Below, piece by piece: positions 1 through 6,807 of a DNA stretch of 6,807 nucleotides; positions within the stretch are counted from its first letter, which is position 1, and each line of letters opens with the position of its first letter. Under the pieces are notes generated by a model. That model worked only from the letters and a program-made list of their open reading frames with translations, ran no database searches and was not told where the DNA came from. The position numbers and the translations under genes were made by a program. This stretch comes from a bacterium HR25 (GTDB taxonomy: Bacteria > Chloroflexota > Dehalococcoidia > SM23-28-2 > HRbin24): contig BEIB01000044.1 of assembly GCA_002898615.1 (NCBI GenBank), positions 1 through 6,807 on the forward strand, written 5' to 3'.

Positions 1-348
1 CCGCCGGGGTTCATAGTGGGCTGTTCCACCAACAACGTGGAGGAGGCCCGGCGGGCGGAGGCGGATGGGGCGAGCTACGTCTCGGTGGGGCGCCTCTTCC
101 CCACGCAGTCCAAAGAGGACACCCGTCCCGCCTCCACGGATACGGTGCGACAGATCAGGGCGGCCGTCAGGGTGCCGGTCTGCGCCATCGGCGGCATCAA
201 CGAGGAGAACATCGACGCCGTTCTGGCCGCCGGGGCGGACATGGCGGCCGTCATCGGGGCGGTGGTGGCCGCCCCCGATCCGGAGGAGGCAGCGCGGCGC
301 CTGGCCTCTCGCTTCGGGCGGGCGGTCACAGGAAGCGGCCAGGACTGA
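1..348 (+). CDS. thiE: Thiamine-phosphate synthase, C-terminal part (cut by window start)
   Basis: ThiE is a cytoplasmic TIM-barrel enzyme. It joins hydroxymethylpyrimidine diphosphate to the thiazole phosphate to make thiamine phosphate. Only the last 115 residues are visible. The frame is open to base 1, so the GTG at 16 is internal and about 90-100 N-terminal residues lie outside the window. Seen in the sequence: GCSTNN (the family usually has G-[VC]-S-T/A-H, so Asn replaces the common His), then GRLFPTQSKEDTR, which matches the GPxFPTxTKxDT loop that contacts pyrophosphate and thiazole phosphate. CAIGGINEEN is the phosphate-binding glycine loop near the barrel end, and AGADMAAVIGAV is the last strand region. 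The gene ends at TGA 346-348, inside the 3' end of the opposing thiO. Nearness to thiO supports a thiamine role. The family call is firm; fusion to another domain upstream cannot be excluded. Confidence 0.93.
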   Translation, partial: PPGFIVGCSTNNVEEARRAEADGASYVSVGRLFPTQSKEDTRPASTDTVRQIRAAVRVPVCAIGGINEENIDAVLAAGADMAAVIGAVVAAPDPEEAARRLASRFGRAVTGSGQD

Positions 349-1432
349 AGGGCGCCAGGGGAAGCTCGGGCCGCTCCCCCAGGAGGAGCTGGGACATCAG
401 ACGGCCGGTGATGGGAGCCAGGAGGATGCCGTTGCGGAAGTGTCCCGTTGCCACGCTCAGACCCTCCCAGCCCGGCACCGTCCCCATGATGGGTAGCCCG
501 TCCGGGGAGCCAGGCCGGAGGCCGGCCCAGGCGGAGCCCTCCTGGACATGGCGGAAGGCCGGTGCCAGCTCCCCGGCCATGCGGCGCAGGGATGCCAGCC
601 CCCGTTGGGTGGTGCGGGGGCGGAACCCCACGTCCTCCACGGTGGCGCCGGCCCAGGTGGTGCCGTTGGGCTTGGGGACGAGATAGCCCCGCGGCCCCCA
701 GACGATGCGGCGCAGTGGCGTGCCCGGGTAGGCCAGCATCTGCCCCCGACGGGGAGGGGTGGCTATGTGAACGCCCAGGCAGCCCAGCAGCCGGCCCGTC
801 CAGGCCCCCAGGGCCAGCACCACATGGCCCCCTGGCAGGCTGCCCCGGGGCGTCCTCACGCCCGTGATGCGGCGCCCGCGGCGCAGGAAGCCGAAGACAG
901 GCGTCCCCGTGAGGATGCGCACGCCCCGCCGCTGGGTGGCCACGGCCAGGGCATCGACCAGCCGGACCGGGTTGACCTGGCCCTCGTGGGGAGAGTAGAG
1001 GGCGGCCCGCACCGCCGGGGTGAGGCCGGGCTCCAGCTCGCGCACGGCCCATCCCTCCAGCCACTCCAGACCCGGCTCCAGCGCCCGCTGCCACCGCAGA
1101 CGCTCCCGCAGCTCCCCCTCCTGCTCCGCCGTGAGGGCGACCCGCAGGAGGCCGGGCATCGTAAGCTCCAGGTCGATGCCTGTCTCCTGGCGCAGCTCCT
1201 CCGCCCAGGCGGGATAGAGGCGGAAGCTGGCCAGGGCCAGGTCGGCGAAGGGGCCAGGGCTGTGTGACTCGCTCAGGGGGACGAGCATGCCGGCGGCCGC
1301 CCGGGACGCTCCCTGCCCTGGCTGTCCCTGCTCCACTACGGTGACAGACGCGCCCGCGCCGGCCAGATAATAGGCGATGGAGCAGCCGATGACGCCGCCG
1401 CCGACGACGATGAAATCGCTCCCGGCGTCCAA
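326..1432 (-). CDS. thiO: Glycine oxidase ThiO-like FAD-dependent amine oxidase
   Basis: This is a DAO-family flavoenzyme of 368 residues, the normal length for ThiO. ThiO oxidises glycine to the imine that ThiG uses to build the thiazole ring of thiamine. Visible features: the FAD dinucleotide motif GGGVIG at residues 11-16 with Glu34 ending the second strand to bind the ribose; ASRAAAGML (42-50), typical of the family; GQVNPVRLVDAL (151-162); GATVEDVGF (262-270); WAGLRPGSPDGLPIMG (302-317); and GHFRNGILLAP (330-340). The Arg residues in the LRP and FRNG segments match the positions that bind the substrate carboxylate in characterised glycine oxidases. The start is TTG (1430-1432). It is the only start codon between an in-frame TAG (1436-1438) and the FAD motif, and a GGGAG lies about 10 bases upstream. 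Its last 23 bases overlap thiE head-on. It probably follows the zinc-ribbon gene in one transcript. thiS and thiG are not in the window, so a sarcosine or D-amino-acid oxidase role remains possible. Confidence 0.88.
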   Translation of the reverse strand: MDAGSDFIVVGGGVIGCSIAYYLAGAGASVTVVEQGQPGQGASRAAAGMLVPLSESHSPGPFADLALASFRLYPAWAEELRQETGIDLELTMPGLLRVALTAEQEGELRERLRWQRALEPGLEWLEGWAVRELEPGLTPAVRAALYSPHEGQVNPVRLVDALAVATQRRGVRILTGTPVFGFLRRGRRITGVRTPRGSLPGGHVVLALGAWTGRLLGCLGVHIATPPRRGQMLAYPGTPLRRIVWGPRGYLVPKPNGTTWAGATVEDVGFRPRTTQRGLASLRRMAGELAPAFRHVQEGSAWAGLRPGSPDGLPIMGTVPGWEGLSVATGHFRNGILLAPITGRLMSQLLLGERPELPLAPFSPGRFL

Positions 1433-1473: not shown

Positions 1474-1668
1474 CTACAATAGCCGCGAGTGGCCCCTCAG
1501 GGCCGGGAACCTTTCGGCCCAGGGCCTGGCCCGGCCCATGGCCAGGGCCAGGTCTATATCCTCGGCCGTAGCGAAGCCGCAGTGCTCGCAGACGTAGTAT
1601 TCACCCCACAAGTCGTGGCAAGAGCGGAGCTGCTCGCCGCAGGAGGGGCAGATGGGGCTCAGATCCAC
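1474..1668 (-). CDS. Small zinc-ribbon protein of unknown function
   Basis: This is a 64-residue protein, if translation begins at the GTG at 1666-1668. That codon has an ideal AAGGAGGT (1676-1683) seven bases upstream. An in-frame ATG at 1690-1692 would add eight residues (MPAKEVVA) but would place the perfect ribosome site inside the gene, so I prefer the GTG. The protein has two CxxC knuckles, CPSC (7-10) and CEHC (27-30), separated by 16 residues, with an extra Cys17-His18 pair between them. This is the layout of a treble-clef or zinc-ribbon metal site. The C-terminal half is a short charged helix-like stretch (AEDIDLALAMGRARPW) with no known motif. The gene lies 41 bases upstream of thiO on the same strand and downstream of a good promoter, so the two are probably cotranscribed. 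No function can be assigned; such ribbons often act as nucleic-acid or protein-binding adaptors. Confidence 0.68.
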   Translation of the reverse strand: MDLSPICPSCGEQLRSCHDLWGEYYVCEHCGFATAEDIDLALAMGRARPWAERFPALRGHSRLL

Positions 1669-1675
1669 CGCTACC

Positions 1676-1683
1676 ACCTCCTT
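1676..1683 (-). promoter_or_regulatory. Strong ribosome binding site deciding the zinc-ribbon start
   Basis: On the - strand this reads AAGGAGGT, a full match to the anti-Shine-Dalgarno complement. It sits seven bases before GTG 1668-1666. It lies within the reading frame that would open at the alternative ATG 1692, which argues for the downstream GTG as the true start. Confidence 0.7.
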
Positions 1684-1685
1684 GG

Positions 1686-1699
1686 CCGGCATAGGCCGG
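1686..1699. repeat. Small inverted repeat in the zinc-ribbon leader
   Basis: CCGGC and GCCGG flank a four-base loop (ATAG), giving a 5-bp GC stem. In the - strand transcript the stem would sit just before the strong ribosome site at 1676-1683 and contain the alternative ATG 1692 in its loop region. That would discourage use of the ATG. There is no U-tract, so it is not a terminator. It may be chance in GC-rich DNA. Confidence 0.3.
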
Positions 1700-1852: not shown

Positions 1853-2845
1853 ATGCGTTGGGGCGTGACCATACCCCTGGACGGCCTCCCTCTGGCGGCC
1901 CACCGGGAGGCGCTGGCGGAAGCCGTCCGCCTGGGCTACACCGATGCTTGGACGTCTGAGGTAGATGGGACGGACTCCGTCACCCCGGCGGCAGTGGCGG
2001 CCGCCTGGTTCCCCGAGCTGAACGTGGGCACCGCCATCACCAACATCTATCTGCGGGGGCCGGGCCTGCTGGCCCAGACGGCCGCCGCCCTGGCAGAGAT
2101 AGCACCGGGGCGGGCACACCTGGGCCTGGGCGTGAGCACCAAGGTCATCGTAGAGCGTTGGAACGGCCACCGGCTGGAGCGGCCCCTCTCCCGTATGCGG
2201 GCGACCGTAGACTTCCTGCGCACCGTCCTAGCGGGCGAGCGGGCCAGCAGCGAGGAGCTGGGCGTCCAGGGCTTCCGTCTGAGCCGACGGGTGGAGACGC
2301 CCCCTGCCATATATGTGGCCGCCCTCCGCCGCGCCATGCTCCGGCTGGCGGGAGAGATAGCGGACGGCGTCATCACCAACTGGCTGGCCCCGGGGGACGT
2401 CCCGCGGGTGGTGGAAGCGGTCAGGGAGGCGGCGCGGGCTGCCGGTCGGGAGCCGGAGTCGGTGAAGGTGGCCTGTCGCATATTCGTCATGCCGCCCCTT
2501 CCGGACGCCGCCGTGCGCAGCGTGGGGCGGCGCCTGGCCGCCGTCTACATCACCGCCCCCGTCTACAGGGCATTCCACGAGTGGCTGGGCCGGGGCGACC
2601 TGATCCGGCCGGCGGTGGAGGCCTGGGAGGCCGGCGACCGCCGCGCCGCCCTGGAGCTCATCCCCGACCGTCTCCTGGAGGAGCTGCTGGTGATGGGCAA
2701 CCGTCAGGAGTGCGTGGACAAGGTGCTGGCCTACTGTCGGAACGGCGTGGACATACCCATCCTGCAGCTCATCACTGTGGGCGAAGGGCCGCAGCAGCAG
2801 GCGGAGATCTCGCTGCGCATGTTGCGGGAGCTGGCCAGACCGTAA
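1853..2845 (+). CDS. LLM-class (luciferase-like) F420/flavin-dependent oxidoreductase
   Basis: This 330-residue protein belongs to the bacterial luciferase-like TIM-barrel superfamily. Its members use F420 or reduced FMN to transfer hydride or oxygen to varied substrates. Seen: an opening strand MRWGVTIPLDG; AVRLGYTDAWTSEVDG (25-39), the family's 'GFDSxWxxE' segment; VGTAITNIYLRGPGLLAQTAA (58-78), the typical strand and helix around the cofactor pocket; PGRAHLGLGVS (85-95), the R-x-x-LGLG motif; ADGVITNWLAP (170-180), the strand lining the phosphate site; and a C-terminal GNRQECVDKVLAYCRNGVD (282-300), matching the common 'G(T/S)PEEVxEKLxxYxxAGVD' region. The length is normal and the start has GAGGG five bases upstream. 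It is first in a likely two-gene operon with the SDR, 16 bases apart. Cofactor (F420 versus FMN) and substrate cannot be decided from the sequence. The overall pattern is closer to F420-dependent methylenetetrahydromethanopterin-reductase-like members than to true luciferases. Confidence 0.88.
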   Translation: MRWGVTIPLDGLPLAAHREALAEAVRLGYTDAWTSEVDGTDSVTPAAVAAAWFPELNVGTAITNIYLRGPGLLAQTAAALAEIAPGRAHLGLGVSTKVIVERWNGHRLERPLSRMRATVDFLRTVLAGERASSEELGVQGFRLSRRVETPPAIYVAALRRAMLRLAGEIADGVITNWLAPGDVPRVVEAVREAARAAGREPESVKVACRIFVMPPLPDAAVRSVGRRLAAVYITAPVYRAFHEWLGRGDLIRPAVEAWEAGDRRAALELIPDRLLEELLVMGNRQECVDKVLAYCRNGVDIPILQLITVGEGPQQQAEISLRMLRELARP

Positions 2846-2861: not shown

Positions 2862-3671
2862 ATGGACCCCAGAGACAAAGTAGCCCTGGTGACGGGCGCC
2901 GCCTCCGGCATAGGGCGGGCCACTGCCCTGGCCCTGGCCCGGGCCGGCGCCAGCGTCGTCGTGGTGGACCTGAACAAAGAGGGCGGCCAGGAGACGGTGC
3001 GTCTGATAGAGGCGGAGGGCGGGCGGGCCGCCTTCGTCCGGGTGGACGTGACCCGCTGGGAGGACCTGGAGCGGATGGTGGCCTTCGCCGAGGAGACCTT
3101 CGGCGGGCTGGACATCGCCCACAACAATGCCGGCATCGTCACTGGCCGCCCTCGCTTCCCCCGCTCGCCCCGGGAGAAGTGGGAGCGCTGTCTGGACGTC
3201 TGCCTGTGGGCGGTCATCGCCTCCATACAGCTTGAGGTGCCGGCCATGCAGCGCCGCGGCGGGGGCGTCATCGTCAACACCGCCTCCCTGGCCGGCGTGG
3301 TGGGCTTCCAGGCGGACCCCGTCTACACCGCCGCCAAACACGGGGTGGTGGGGCTGACCCGCGCCCTGGCCTTCCTCCATAGCGAGGCCAACATAAGGGT
3401 CAACTGCGTCTGCCCCGGCGTGGTGGACACCCCCATCCTCTTCCAGGCGATGGAGGGCGCTTCCCCGGAGAGGCTGGCCCAGTACAAGGCCCAGCTAGAC
3501 GAGCTGCCCAAGCTGCGGCCGGAAGAGATAGCTGAGGCCGTCCTGGAGATAGTGCGGGACGACTCCATGGTGGGGGAGGCGATGGGCGTCCTGCCAGGGC
3601 GGCCCCGCCGCCTCATCCCGCCGGCGGTGCGGCTGGAGACGGACCCCCTTACGCGCATAATGGGCGGCTAG
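2862..3671 (+). CDS. Short-chain dehydrogenase/reductase (SDR), probably NAD-dependent
   Basis: This is a classical SDR of 269 residues in a Rossmann fold, interconverting an alcohol and a ketone. Seen: TGAASGIG (11-18), the TGxxxGxG cofactor loop; Asp36 after VVVV, which favours NAD(H) over NADP(H); VDVT (61-64), adenine-binding; NNAG (88-91); Ser142 in NTASLAG; Tyr155 and Lys159 in YTAAK, the catalytic pair; and NCVCPGVVDTP (181-191) after the active site. The Asn of the usual catalytic tetrad, in the 'vNLxG' segment after NNAG, reads VCLWA here, so Cys114 takes its place. The ribosome site GGGAGG (2851-2856) is five bases from ATG, and the gene follows the LLM oxidoreductase gene by 16 bases. 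Its TAG stop shares the palindrome CTAG with the stop of the opposing kinase gene. Context suggests a hydroxyacyl or ketoacyl substrate, perhaps as a C4 ketoacyl-CoA reductase like LvaD, but this is inference. Confidence 0.92.
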   Translation: MDPRDKVALVTGAASGIGRATALALARAGASVVVVDLNKEGGQETVRLIEAEGGRAAFVRVDVTRWEDLERMVAFAEETFGGLDIAHNNAGIVTGRPRFPRSPREKWERCLDVCLWAVIASIQLEVPAMQRRGGGVIVNTASLAGVVGFQADPVYTAAKHGVVGLTRALAFLHSEANIRVNCVCPGVVDTPILFQAMEGASPERLAQYKAQLDELPKLRPEEIAEAVLEIVRDDSMVGEAMGVLPGRPRRLIPPAVRLETDPLTRIMGG

Positions 3672-4711
3672 CCGCGCAGGGGGGCGAAGCTGGACTGGTT
3701 GGCGATCCTGAGGCCGCGGCGCGCCAGCACCAGCACCTGGTCGCCGATGGTCTCGAACCCTTCGCCGACGGTGCCGCCGCCCAGGTAGCGGGCGTACATG
3801 TTCTCCAGGATGACCGCCAGCTTGAAGTGTCCCAGCACCACGTAGTAGTCGAGCTGGCTGAGGTCTCGCCCGCTCTTCTCGGCGTAGCGCTGGGCCACCT
3901 CGTCCCAGGTGGGGAAGCCGGGCAGGCTGGTGACAGTGACGCCGGCCACGCTGAGCTCCTGGTCCACCCCCCGCGCCCAGTACATGCGCAGCATGCCCAC
4001 GTCGGCCAGGGGGTCGCCCAGGGTGGCCATCTCCCAGTCCAGGACGGCGATGATGTTCCCCTCCTCGTCCACGATGGCGTTGTCTAGACGGTAGTCGCCA
4101 TGGACGATGGCGTGGTCGCTCTCCTCCATGGTGATCTGGTTGAGGCGACGGCACAGCTCGTCCAGCTCCGGGATGTCACGGAAGCGGATGCGCTGCCATT
4201 GCTCGGTGAAGCGCTTCACCTGGCGGGCCAGGTAGCCCTGGGGGCGGCCGAAGTCGCTCAGGCCTATCTCGTCGGGGCGCAGGGCGTGCAGAGTGGCCAG
4301 CACGTCCACTAGCTGCTCTCCCATACGCCGCCGCTGAGCCTCATCGTAGCGCTGCGCCACTTCCTTGGGGTTGGCGGGGACGAAGCCTTTCACATAGGTC
4401 ATGACGTAGAAGGGGGCGCCTATCACCTCCGGGTCGCCACAGAAGGCGAGGGGACGGGGCGCCGGCACCGCCGTGTCCTTGATAGCGGAGAGGACGCGGA
4501 ACTCCCGCGACATGTCGTGGGCGGTGGGCTGCACGTGGGAGAGAGGGGGGCGCCGCAGCACCCAGGACTGGCCGTCCCCGTCGAGCCGGTAGGTCAGGTT
4601 CGACCGCCCGTGGCCGATGAGGGAGGCCCGCAGCTCCTGCACAGGCGCCACGTGCTCACGGAACCAGGGGAGAAGGTTCGCCATCACAATGCCAGGAACG
4701 TCCTCGGCCAT
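3668..4711 (-). CDS. APH-fold phosphotransferase, ACAD10/11-kinase-like (LvaA-like)
   Basis: This 347-residue kinase has the aminoglycoside-phosphotransferase/choline-kinase fold. Seen: GHGRSNLTYRL (33-43), the nucleotide loop; WVLRRPP (50-56), where the ATP-binding Lys of most kinases is Arg, common in this subfamily; Glu70 in SREFRVL; YVMTYVKG (102-109), the hinge; HGDYRLDN (204-211), the catalytic loop with Asp206 and Asn211; VLDWEMATLGDPLADVG (223-239), carrying the metal-binding Asp225 and the GDPLAD motif typical of the ACAD10/11 kinase domain. The best start is ATG 4711-4709 with AGGG upstream; Met10 is a weaker alternative. It is divergent from an acyl-CoA dehydrogenase across a 125-base gap and converges on the SDR with overlapping stops. 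In animal ACAD10/ACAD11 this kinase is fused to an acyl-CoA dehydrogenase and phosphorylates 4-hydroxyacyl-CoAs; bacterial LvaA does the same for 4-hydroxyvaleryl-CoA. A similar role is inferred here. Antibiotic resistance is unlikely. Confidence 0.87.
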   Translation of the reverse strand: MAEDVPGIVMANLLPWFREHVAPVQELRASLIGHGRSNLTYRLDGDGQSWVLRRPPLSHVQPTAHDMSREFRVLSAIKDTAVPAPRPLAFCGDPEVIGAPFYVMTYVKGFVPANPKEVAQRYDEAQRRRMGEQLVDVLATLHALRPDEIGLSDFGRPQGYLARQVKRFTEQWQRIRFRDIPELDELCRRLNQITMEESDHAIVHGDYRLDNAIVDEEGNIIAVLDWEMATLGDPLADVGMLRMYWARGVDQELSVAGVTVTSLPGFPTWDEVAQRYAEKSGRDLSQLDYYVVLGHFKLAVILENMYARYLGGGTVGEGFETIGDQVLVLARRGLRIANQSSFAPLRG

Positions 4712-4750
4712 CGCTCTACCCTGCCTGGAATTAAGAATAAGGGCGACTGC

Positions 4751-4763
4751 TGCCCGTCAGGCA
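4751..4763. repeat. Short inverted repeat at the upstream edge of the divergent promoter
   Basis: TGCC and GGCA flank a five-base centre (CGTCA). The site overlaps where the -35 box of the + strand promoter would fall, so it could be an operator for a dimeric regulator. The arms are only 4 bp, so chance is a real possibility. No regulator gene is in the window. Confidence 0.25.
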
Positions 4764-4770
4764 CTCCGAA

Positions 4771-4780
4771 TATTATAATA
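4771..4780. promoter_or_regulatory. Palindromic -10 element, putative bidirectional promoter
   Basis: TATTATAATA is its own reverse complement. It contains a perfect TATAAT on the + strand (4774-4779) and on the - strand (4777-4772). It lies in the AT-rich middle of the gap between the kinase (- strand) and the acyl-CoA dehydrogenase (+ strand). Both -35 regions are weak: CTGCCC at 4750-4755 (+, 18-base spacer), and TGGTCG on the - strand at 4799-4794 (16-base spacer). The weak -35 boxes suggest activator help or weak transcription. The + leader would be about 50 bases, ending in AGGAGG (4826-4831) five bases before ATG 4837. A separate - strand possibility is CTGACG (4760-4755) with TATTCT (4739-4734) at a short 15-base spacing. 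Confidence 0.5.
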
Positions 4781-4836
4781 GCCACGAGGTCTCCGACCAC
4801 CCTGGCAAGACCTTCGCTTTCGCTCAGGAGGAGAGG

Positions 4837-6060
4837 ATGGGCATCGATTTCACCCTGCCCCCGGACATAGAGGAGGTACGACAGCGAGTCCGCACCTTCA
4901 TAGAGGGGGAGGTGCGGCCGGTGGAGGACGGCCTGCTGCGGGAGAACGCCCCTCGCAGCGAGTGGGTGCGCTCCGTGCAGGAGTTGCGCCAGCGGGCCCG
5001 CGAGGTGGGCCTCTGGAACCCGCACCTGCCGCCGGAGTGGGGCGGCATGGGGCTGGGGCCCACGGCCATGGCCTTCGTCCACGCCGAGGCCGGCCGCACC
5101 ATGATAGGCCCCTACATCCTGAACGCCCAGGCCCCGGACGAGGGGAACATGCACACCCTCCTCCACTGGGGGACGCCGGAGCAGAAGGAGAAGTACCTGC
5201 GCCCCCTGGCCGAGGGCCGCTGTCGCTCCTGCTTCGCCATGACGGAGCCGGAGGTGGCCGGCTCCGACCCCACTCTCCTCCAGACCCGCGCCGTCCAGGA
5301 CGGGGACTACTGGGTCATCAACGGGCACAAGTGGTTCGCCTCTGGTGCCCGCGGCGCCAAGTTCGCCATCGTCATCGCCTGCACCGACCCCGACGCCGAC
5401 CCGCCCCAGGCCCGCAACTCGGCCTTCATCGTGGACATCCCCACCGAGGGGTGGGAGCTGGTGCGCACCATCGCCACCATGGCGGGGGAGGGCAACCACG
5501 GCGAGATCCGCCTCAACAACGTGCGCGTCCCCGCCTCCAACATGCTGGGCCCGCGGGGCCAGGGGCATCTCTTGGGGCAGTACCGGCTGGGCCCGGCCCG
5601 TCTGGCCCACTGCATGCGCTGGATAGGCCAGGCGGAGGTGGCCCTGGAGATGCTGGTGGACCGCGCCCTGAACCGCTTCGCCCATGGCTCCTATCTGGCG
5701 GATAAGCAGGCCATCCAGTGGATGATCGCCGAGTCGGCTATGGAGCTGTACACGGCCAAGCTGATGGTCCTGCACGCAGCCTACAAGATCGAGCGGGGGC
5801 TGCCTTTCCGCCAGGAGGTGGCCATGGCCAAGGTGCACGTGGCCAACACCCTCTGGCGGGTGGTGGACCGGGCCATCCAGGTGCACGGCGCGTTGGGCTA
5901 CTCCACCGACACCCCGCTGGAGCGCTGGCTCCGCCACGCCCGGGCGGCCCGCATCGTCGACGGGGCGGACGAGGTGCACATGCAGTACATCGCCCGTCAC
6001 GTCATCGAGACCTTCAAGGAGAAAGGGAAGGTCAAGTCCGCCCTGGGCGACCTGATGTAG
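4837..6060 (+). CDS. Acyl-CoA dehydrogenase, ACAD10/11-like (LvaC-like)
   Basis: This 407-residue FAD enzyme has the acyl-CoA dehydrogenase fold. The N-terminal helical domain spans roughly 1-130 (VRTFIEGEVRP, LPPEWGGMGLG). The middle beta domain spans about 131-245, with CFAMTEPEVAGSDP (132-145), which binds flavin and acyl-CoA, and WVINGHKWFASGA (159-171). The C-terminal helical domain includes RLAHCMRWIGQAEVALE (255-271), a pattern typical of ACAD10/11-type members, and QVHGALGYSTDTPLERW (348-364). The catalytic Glu of classical enzymes (EGTSQ-type motif) aligns with Asp375 in IVDGADEVH, as in ACAD10/11-like proteins. The start has AGGAGG five bases upstream. The gene is divergent from the kinase. 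Animal ACAD11 fuses the two activities; bacterial LvaC acts after LvaA on phosphorylated 4-hydroxyacyl-CoA, removing phosphate to form an enoyl-CoA. The same division of labour is inferred here. A plain fatty acyl-CoA dehydrogenase role is the main alternative. Confidence 0.92.
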   Translation: MGIDFTLPPDIEEVRQRVRTFIEGEVRPVEDGLLRENAPRSEWVRSVQELRQRAREVGLWNPHLPPEWGGMGLGPTAMAFVHAEAGRTMIGPYILNAQAPDEGNMHTLLHWGTPEQKEKYLRPLAEGRCRSCFAMTEPEVAGSDPTLLQTRAVQDGDYWVINGHKWFASGARGAKFAIVIACTDPDADPPQARNSAFIVDIPTEGWELVRTIATMAGEGNHGEIRLNNVRVPASNMLGPRGQGHLLGQYRLGPARLAHCMRWIGQAEVALEMLVDRALNRFAHGSYLADKQAIQWMIAESAMELYTAKLMVLHAAYKIERGLPFRQEVAMAKVHVANTLWRVVDRAIQVHGALGYSTDTPLERWLRHARAARIVDGADEVHMQYIARHVIETFKEKGKVKSALGDLM

Positions 6061-6075
6061 GACGGCGGGCGTCCC

Positions 6076-6807
6076 CTACCTGCTGTCCAGCAGATAGCGG
6101 TTGCGGACCCAGGCGCTCACCAGGTCCATGACCAGGATGAGGGCCAGGATGAGCAGGAGGAGCGTCGTCAGGCGCTGGTACTCCAGCGTCTGCAGATAGA
6201 TGCTCATGTAGAAGCCGATGCCGCCGGCGCCAGCGAAGCCCAGGATGGAGGAGGCGCGGATGTTGTACTCCAGCATGAACAGTAGCTGGCTGATGGCGGC
6301 GTTGGCGCTCTCCGGCCAGACGACGAAGCGGGCCAGTTGCAGGCGTGAGGCGCCCACTCCCCGGAACGCCTCCACCACCTCCGGGTCCGTCCCCTCGAAC
6401 AGCTCGGCGTAGAGCTTCCCCAGATAGCCCACGGTGTAGAAGGTCAGCCCCAGCGTACCGGCCAGCGGGCCCAGCCCTACCACGATGACGAAGAGGACGG
6501 CCCACAGGAGCGAGGGTATCGTCCTCGCCACGGCGACGATGAGGCGGGAGAGCCAGACCACCGGCAGGGGGGCCAGGCTGCGCGCCCCCAGGAACCCCAG
6601 CGGCAGGGCGATGAGAAAGCCCAGGAAGGTGCCGGCGAAGGCCATCTGCACCGTCTCCCACAGGGCCCGCCCTGCCAGGGGAAGGATGCCCACGTCCGGG
6701 GGAACGGTGTCCCGGCTGAAGACCGCCAGGTTGCTGAGACCCTGCGAGATGCGCGAGGCGTCGAAGAGGCCGAACTGGTGCAGGGTGAGCCCGGCCAGGG
6801 CGGCCAC
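6076..6807 (-). CDS. phnE: PhnE-type phosphonate/phosphate ABC transporter permease (5' end outside window)
   Basis: This is an inner-membrane permease of the binding-protein-dependent ABC superfamily; 244 codons including the stop are visible. The frame is open at the window edge, where the first codon is GTG (6807-6805). PhnE proteins are usually somewhat longer, so about 10-40 N-terminal residues including the first membrane helix are probably missing. Seen: hydrophobic segments near residues 55-75, 84-115 (with RTIPSLLWAVLF, a strong PhnE signature), 116-130 (GLGPLAGTLGLTFYT spans 111-125) and 212-232. The EAA-type loop that docks the ATPase is VEAFRGVGASRLQLARFVV (145-163). NIRASSILGFAGAGGIG (182-198) is the most diagnostic PhnE stretch. 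The C-terminus is short and basic. It lies tail to tail with the acyl-CoA dehydrogenase, 15 bases apart. PhnC (ATPase) and PhnD (binding protein) are expected upstream, to the right of the window. The transported ligand (phosphonate, phosphite or phosphate) cannot be told. Confidence 0.88.
   Translation of the reverse strand: MAALAGLTLHQFGLFDASRISQGLSNLAVFSRDTVPPDVGILPLAGRALWETVQMAFAGTFLGFLIALPLGFLGARSLAPLPVVWLSRLIVAVARTIPSLLWAVLFVIVVGLGPLAGTLGLTFYTVGYLGKLYAELFEGTDPEVVEAFRGVGASRLQLARFVVWPESANAAISQLLFMLEYNIRASSILGFAGAGGIGFYMSIYLQTLEYQRLTTLLLLILALILVMDLVSAWVRNRYLLDSR

Follow-up and report, generated by a model that had tools for sequence, protein, structure and literature searches.

A divergent kinase and acyl-CoA dehydrogenase gene pair from bacterium HR25 as a candidate split ACAD10/ACAD11-type module

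The 6,807-nt stretch of contig BEIB01000044.1 from bacterium HR25 (hereafter, the window) contains seven genes, two of which, encoding an APH-fold kinase (3668-4711, minus strand; 347 amino acids) and a protein of the acyl-CoA dehydrogenase (ACAD) fold (4837-6060, plus strand; 407 amino acids), diverge from a 125-base intergenic region (4712-4836). Our computational analysis points to these genes as a split version of the ACAD10/ACAD11-type module, in which the kinase would phosphorylate a hydroxyacyl-coenzyme A (CoA), most likely a 4-hydroxyacyl-CoA, and the ACAD would eliminate the phosphate; we assign this reading a probability of about 0.78. A preliminary description of the window had proposed such a nonfused pair of divergent neighbors from the motifs HGDYRLDN and GDPLAD in the kinase and IVDGADEVH in the ACAD. 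We recovered both open reading frames (ORFs), with these motifs at kinase residues 204-211 and 232-237 and at ACAD residues 373-381, and the proposal gained weight from the presence of every published active-site marker that could be aligned.

In the proposed mechanism, a CoA ligase encoded elsewhere would, by analogy, supply the acyl-CoA, and the kinase would bind the hydroxyacyl-CoA, most likely a 4-hydroxyacyl-CoA, and phosphorylate its hydroxyl with ATP. The ACAD would then take the phosphoacyl-CoA, with Asp375 acting as the base and flavin adenine dinucleotide (FAD) as a transient hydride store (oxidation, then re-reduction), while Arg250, His258, and Arg261 would hold the phosphate until it is expelled. 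The resulting 2-enoyl-CoA would be released to β-oxidation, with no electrons passed to the electron transfer flavoprotein (ETF). Residues, clade membership, conserved linkage, and the occurrence of the pair mostly without DUF6285 in a broad draw of genomes were observed directly, and the chemistry is taken from papers on ACAD10/ACAD11 and LvaA/LvaC; we infer by analogy that the window pair performs it, and likewise its 4-position and chain length. The available part of one such paper (PMC11342911) reports that the kinase and ACAD domains of ACAD10 can each be substituted by the corresponding bacterial protein.

The ACAD, which contains the Pfam domains PF02771, PF02770, and PF00441, carries the residues that distinguish ACAD11 from ordinary dehydrogenases. 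By alignment, Arg250 (5584-5586), Arg255 (5599-5601), and the HCMR motif spanning His258 to Arg261 (5608-5619), all on the plus strand, correspond to mouse ACAD11 R626, which contacts the phosphate, to R631, and to H634-R637, respectively; Asp375 (5959-5961, plus strand) corresponds to the catalytic D753. Ordinary ETF-dependent ACADs have a Glu base at this IYEG position, as in 1ukw, and Asp375 is the predicted catalytic base of the window protein. While the Glu-to-Asp change is already visible in IVDGADEVH, the RLGPAR..HCMR stretch (residues 250-261) is the more telling marker. According to the available part of Rashan et al. (PMC12440821), mouse ACAD11 requires R626, H634, and R637 alongside D753, with H634 and R637 lying within HCMR; LvaC shares these three residues, which conventional ACADs lack, and Ala or Leu at any one of them was the most disruptive to ACAD activity. 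The same text states that FAD must be redox-active and undergoes no lasting change in its oxidation state. All of the published 4-phosphoacyl-CoA residues of mouse ACAD11 that could be aligned are present in the window ACAD, and the seven marker positions read RRHCMRD in 79/79 window-type ACAD rows (nonredundant, with at least 64% identity to the window ACAD).

These residues bear directly on whether an ordinary ETF-dependent ACAD merely sits beside an unrelated small-molecule kinase. Both proteins have common folds, family libraries offer nothing beyond generic names, and most of the 66 further loci described below have no kinase neighbor, all of which would fit a chance arrangement; yet the Asp base, HCMR, and the extra Arg form a set present in no ordinary ACAD row. 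Further, when 64 rows were placed in a maximum-likelihood tree (the window and 14 of the 79 window-type ACADs among them, LvaC not), 50 signature rows, including the window and mouse ACAD11, separated from 14 ordinary rows with 100/100 support, although the program warned of long branches. Matches to PDB sequences were led by 4hr3 (246 bits), followed by ACAD11 of mouse (238 and 236 bits) and human (236 bits), with other ACADs from 180 bits down. Together with linkage across gene orders and phyla, the residues and the tree led us to reject the chance-neighbor explanation, which is largely refuted by these sequence tests and which we consider very improbable. The preliminary description had named placement among ordinary Glu-type ACADs as the outcome that would count against it; both residues and tree place the protein elsewhere, and the module reading therefore stands.

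The kinase (PF01636, 2.3e-51) has the catalytic features of the same system. Asp206 (4094-4096), the predicted catalytic Asp, and Asn211 (4079-4081) align with mouse ACAD11 D220 and N225, and the metal-binding Asp225 is also present. According to the available part of PMC12440821, molecular dynamics modeling of ACAD11 places two arginines on CoA, one beside the αC Glu and the other being R176. Arg163 of the window kinase (4223-4225) aligns with R176, whereas Arg69 (4505-4507), directly before the αC Glu, was matched by description to the R86 of that paper, the same Arg being residue 84 by count on the mouse chain; all four codons lie on the minus strand. Among PDB sequences, the kinase matched 9o56 (221 bits), 3dxp (175 bits), and mouse ACAD11 (166 and 162 bits, with 8v3v among the matches), compared with 56 bits for Rv3168 (3ats), 40 bits for a 25-hydroxysteroid kinase (25-HSK), and at most 26 bits for aminoglycoside and macrolide kinases. 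Our literature searches found no paper for structure 9O56, nor any for kinase/4-hydroxyvalerate terms. A tree of 53 kinase rows, with the catalytic Asp and Asn in every row, divided into a 40-row clade, containing the window, the mouse ACAD11 kinase, 3dxp, and 9o56, and a 13-row clade (100/99), the latter consisting of 12 kinases that adjoin a DUF6285 gene plus the kinase of locus L146. By sequence, the window kinase is thus a member of the ACAD11-kinase-like clade and lies outside the DUF6285-linked clade. The trees that the preliminary description had called for now exist for both families, and in each the window groups with mouse ACAD11.

Linkage of the two genes was assessed by scanning genome contigs, the best 80 of at least 574 relatives yielding 80 loci. 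The 14 nearest (L001-L014) are titled Chloroflexi, Chloroflexota, or Dehalococcoidia, except for L001 ("Bacterium HR24"), and a divergent kinase stands beside the ACAD in 13 of them, within 270 bases in 11, at 757 bases in L007, and at 2993 bases in L005; in the lone exception, L004, the contig starts 113 bases before the ACAD. Among the other 66 loci, a window-type kinase occurs within 5 kb of the ACAD, in other orientations, in five (L025, L027, L032, L045 weakly, and L048), of which L025, L027, and L032 are Myxococcota by their listed origins and L048 is Bacillota, and an LvaA-like kinase occurs in two (L024 and L039). When 20 of these 66 genomes were searched for the kinase, 20/20 held a match at 1e-40 or better. 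Many Acidimicrobiia-type loci share other neighbors, which look housekeeping-like as named by eye from sequence.

Co-occurrence was examined in an even draw of 151 genomes from a single phylum, centered on and including HR24 (L001, G001), an organism listed as "unclassified Bacteria" in NCBI whose assignment to Chloroflexota was read from its kin; the kinase, ACAD, and DUF6285 scans were taken, from their genome handles, to cover the same set. At cut-offs of 1e-60 for the kinase and 1e-100 for the ACAD, and with a limited number of candidates scored per genome, the kinase was found in 31 genomes, the ACAD in 26, and both in 18 (Fisher 1.6e-9, kinship ignored). The genes are linked in 15 of these 18, within 200 bases in 14 and at 4.1 kb in G087, and are in tandem in all but G001. 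Of 20 kinase regions read from this draw, 14 have an ACAD of the family adjoining or near, and six hold the kinase alone; 13 of the 14 ACADs carry RRHCMRD, and that of L164, which is split over two frames, has RRHAMRD. A draw of 149 genomes from the phylum of Acidiferrimicrobium (G019), the Actinomycetota, with the center genome included and limited candidates scored per genome, gave the kinase in 59, the ACAD in 27, and both in 25 (Fisher 3.5e-10, kinship ignored), with the pair within 5 kb in 9/25 and within 200 bases in seven of these. The kinase and ACAD pair more often than chance would allow, and the pairing recurs in other gene orders.

Several observations weigh against our interpretation. 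The window ACAD falls outside the ACAD11 subclade: in the tree, one subclade unites mouse ACAD11 and 4hr3 with L135 and L136, and the window lies in a separate 15-row subclade from contigs of Chloroflexota, Actinomycetota, Myxococcota, Bacillota, and Binatota, which makes the window ACAD a cousin of ACAD11 rather than its ortholog. Its identity to ACAD11 and 4hr3 in structure alignments is 34-39%, and its structure model is modest, with the predicted local distance difference test score (pLDDT) below 50 at residues 376-382. For 61 of the 66 further loci, a search within 5 kb of the ACAD revealed no window-type kinase, although 35/66 offer less than 5 kb of sequence on one or both sides, indicating that the window ACAD subfamily can live apart from the kinase gene. 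In the 151-genome draw, at the cut-off and number of candidates given above, the kinase occurs without the ACAD in 13/31 genomes and the ACAD without the kinase in 8/26, and the G049 ACAD is divided between two frames. Lastly, APH-fold kinases act on many other alcohols.

Conceivably, the pair performs the same chemistry on another substrate, activating a hydroxyl at C5 or C6 or one carried by an acyl-CoA with a branched, cyclic, steroid, or isoprenoid side chain, much as the APH-fold 25-HSK phosphorylates a steroid side-chain alcohol. The 25-HSK structures 9fsg/9ft5 rank 3-5 among the fold matches of the kinase model, and single genomes holding several signature ACADs of different subclades (two in G001, three in G008, and four in G009) suggest that there are several substrates. 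On the other hand, 25-HSK scores only 40 bits by sequence compared with ~166 for the ACAD11 kinase, and the available part of PMC12440821 ties the HCMR pocket and Asp base to the 4-phosphoacyl group; we therefore regard a different substrate as unlikely. The models themselves (mean pLDDT 74.6 for the ACAD, with best fold matches 4hr3 and then ACAD11 [8v3u]; 85.2 for the kinase, with best match 3dxp) agree with both assignments but add little beyond sequence.

Two groups of ACADs with altered motifs were also encountered. One is a further subfamily (L130, L131 [1298-2548], L132, L133, L134, L125, and L150) with RRHCMND in 7/7 rows and no kinase within 5 kb, loci L125 and L130 being only ~4 kb long; its reaction may differ because the missing Arg is one whose Ala or Leu mutants stall ACAD11, according to the available part of PMC12440821. 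The other (L121, L123, and L149) has a variant HGMH signature and adjoins a same-strand kinase in 3/3 loci, which may reflect a different phosphorylated substrate.

A third explanation is that the window holds a true lva-type levulinate module, with the short-chain dehydrogenase/reductase (SDR) as LvaD, the kinase as LvaA, the ACAD as LvaC, and LvaB and LvaE encoded elsewhere. The SDR gene (2862-3671, plus strand), which is tail to tail with the kinase, does adjoin the pair, and SDRs recur with the ACAD, kinase, and DUF6285 on Azospirillum, Azoarcus, and Thermus plasmids. The preliminary description had cast this SDR as an LvaD-like C4 enzyme; its adjacency stands, and 4/14 nearest loci (L001, L002, L006, and L010, some contigs ending sooner) have an SDR of its clade no more than 3 kb from the kinase, but SDRs are common and the window SDR shares just 34-40% identity with four from DUF6285-type operons, which leaves a weak case for an LvaD-like C4 alcohol/ketone enzyme. 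LvaB is, we assume, a member of DUF6285. As the preliminary description had said of LvaB and the CoA ligase, neither DUF6285 (PF19802) nor a CoA ligase was found among the scanned window frames. We also considered a DUF6285 hidden in the 420-base gap at 1433-1852, where five ORFs of at least 40 amino acids were scanned and no DUF6285 was found. Moreover, the window kinase lies outside the DUF6285-linked clade, and the DUF6285 genes of its relatives adjoin another kinase. An lva operon was rejected on the absence of DUF6285 from the scanned window frames and on the kinase clade, and we consider it highly improbable.

The preliminary description had left two possibilities, that the kinase works without LvaB or that the partners lie elsewhere. 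DUF6285 was found in 17/20 genomes holding a window-type ACAD; among the 14 nearest genomes, it occurs in 11, always on a contig other than that of the pair, and was not found in three. It adjoins a different kinase, 26-30% identical to that of the window, in 11 of the 12 regions fetched from these genomes. In the 151-genome draw, DUF6285 was found in only four genomes, and in only three of the 18 with both window-type genes (none found in 15), which shows that the pair is frequently present in genomes that yielded no DUF6285. For this kinase type, the evidence thus leans to the first possibility, yet 11/14 of the nearest genomes do hold DUF6285 on another contig. In the available part of PMC11342911, LvaB is not mentioned (0 occurrences).

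The two kinase clades differ at the predicted CoA contacts. An Arg occupies the Arg69 position in 70/70 window-type rows compared with 1/48 DUF6285-linked rows, and the Arg163 position in 69/70 compared with 0/48, but these are not independent events, since they lie on either side of one deep split and a single evolutionary event may account for the entire contrast, nor are the 70 window-type rows a random sample, having been collected through their similarity to the window kinase or through linkage. The count took in 12 of the 18 DUF6285 places from the search of 20 genomes with a window-type ACAD; it left out L190, L191, and L242 (same places as others), L228 (where the second, ACAD11-like kinase of the locus had been picked instead of its DUF6285-type kinase), and L146 (a member of the DUF6285-linked clade that lacks both arginines and whose genome, G010, yielded no DUF6285), and L192 gave no kinase. 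L225 was counted as DUF6285-linked, though its small neighbor is annotated only as "hypothetical protein". By alignment, then, window-type kinases keep two CoA-contact arginines that DUF6285-linked kinases lack. In DUF6285 rows (L081-L088, L171-L184, L230-L240, L193, L227, and L229), an Arg (35/36), a Glu (31/36; Arg-Glu), and a C-terminal Pro (35/36) are near-invariant. Our literature search found no paper on DUF6285.

DUF6285-type kinases, too, have signature ACADs as partners in Thermus thermophilus HB8, Azoarcus, and Azospirillum, indicating that one ACAD family serves both kinase kinds. Some Dehalococcoidia have both kinds in one genome. We tentatively propose that two ancient kinds of 4-hydroxyacyl-CoA kinase might feed the same phosphate-eliminating ACAD family: one, in the window and ACAD11, would grip CoA by its own two arginines and work alone, whereas the other would have lost or never had them and would need DUF6285/LvaB for the CoA grip, perhaps through the near-invariant Arg. 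Strict interdependence of DUF6285 and this second kinase is contradicted by L146 (no DUF6285 found in G010), by G002, and by Pseudomonas citronellolis, whose lvaA region is without lvaB according to the available part of PMC6692424. In addition, the ACAD directly after the DUF6285-type kinase in Variovorax and Sulfitobacter is of the ordinary Glu type, so such a kinase does not always adjoin a signature ACAD.

In G002 (L090, 4677-6051), the gene directly before DUF6285 encodes a DUF7065/DUF7064 protein where a kinase would otherwise stand, and the contig yielded no kinase; a luciferase-like gene comes after DUF6285, and a CoA-transferase III gene lies 1.7 kb further. A histidine phosphatase gene follows DUF6285 in 3/5 annotated plasmid loci viewed (L193, 7478-8131; L227, 5373-6050; L229, 5418-6131), and the available part of PMC6692424 places one near lvaA of P. 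citronellolis; this enzyme perhaps clears stalled phosphoacyl-CoA.

The remaining window genes are thiE (1-348, plus strand, cut by the window start), thiO (326-1432, minus strand), a gene for an F420-type luciferase-like oxidoreductase (LLM; 1853-2845, plus strand), and phnE (6076-6807, minus strand, cut by the window end). The order thiE-thiO-LLM-SDR-kinase-ACAD-phnE is the same in L001 (HRbin24) and is kept from LLM through phnE in L002, and the nearest proteins with a named source are from Chloroflexi or Dehalococcoidia. Within the divergent intergenic region, AGGAGG (4826-4831) precedes the ACAD start and a TATAAT-like stretch is present, although no sigma-70 consensus match was called there. 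An Rfam scan of the window returned nothing at gathering scores, and a plasmid megablast with the window gave a single 40-base match. Directly upstream of thiO, on the same strand, a 72-amino acid ORF (1474-1692, minus strand) contains two CxxC pairs (CPSC...CEHC), with weak zinc-ribbon matches below cut-offs. Among the loci, L026, in a record titled Bifidobacterium breve, has an ACAD 69% identical to that of the window and SDR and LLM neighbors, much like the Acidimicrobiia-titled L030; its title looks like that of a mislabeled bin.

The ACAD10/ACAD11 reaction pair is known from animals and a few bacteria; our results suggest that it is an old module, widespread in bacteria and comprising several ACAD subfamilies, and linked pairs were seen on contigs taken as Chloroflexota, Actinomycetota, Myxococcota, and Bacillota. 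The residues R, R, HCMR, and Asp offer a simple sequence test for proteins that databases call plain acyl-CoA dehydrogenase or aminoglycoside phosphotransferase. The most interesting by-product is the possible two-kinase split, which, if true, would explain the need of P. putida for LvaB, and our findings make the role of LvaB testable.

Among known systems, ACAD10 and ACAD11 of mouse and human (8v3u, 8v3v, and 2wbi) share with the window pair the HGD...N kinase with CoA-contact Arg, the ACAD with R, R, HCMR, and an Asp base, and the predicted two-step logic, but theirs are fused in one chain (with an additional HAD domain in ACAD10), whereas the window has two separate proteins of about one-third identity that belong to another subclade. 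LvaA/LvaB/LvaC of Pseudomonas putida KT2440, by their published description, likewise comprise a separate kinase and an LvaC-type ACAD with an SDR nearby; the window differs in having no DUF6285 or CoA-ligase gene in its scanned frames and a kinase of the other clade. In the pTT27 operon of T. thermophilus HB8 (TTH_RS10060-10085), the ACAD TTH_RS10075 carries RRHCMRD, is 46.5% identical to the window ACAD, and has a kinase next door, but this kinase is followed by DUF6285 and is without both CoA-contact arginines, and the operon also contains AMP-binding, MaoC, thioesterase, and histidine phosphatase genes. The Mycobacterium abscessus ACAD 4hr3 and the Ralstonia eutropha kinase 3dxp are the best fold matches of the window models, though both were deposited as "putative" and 4hr3 has HAMR instead of HCMR. 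Finally, the 25-hydroxysteroid kinase 9fsg shares the APH fold and phosphorylates a lipid alcohol, but it is far from the window kinase in sequence (40 bits) and acts on a steroid side chain.

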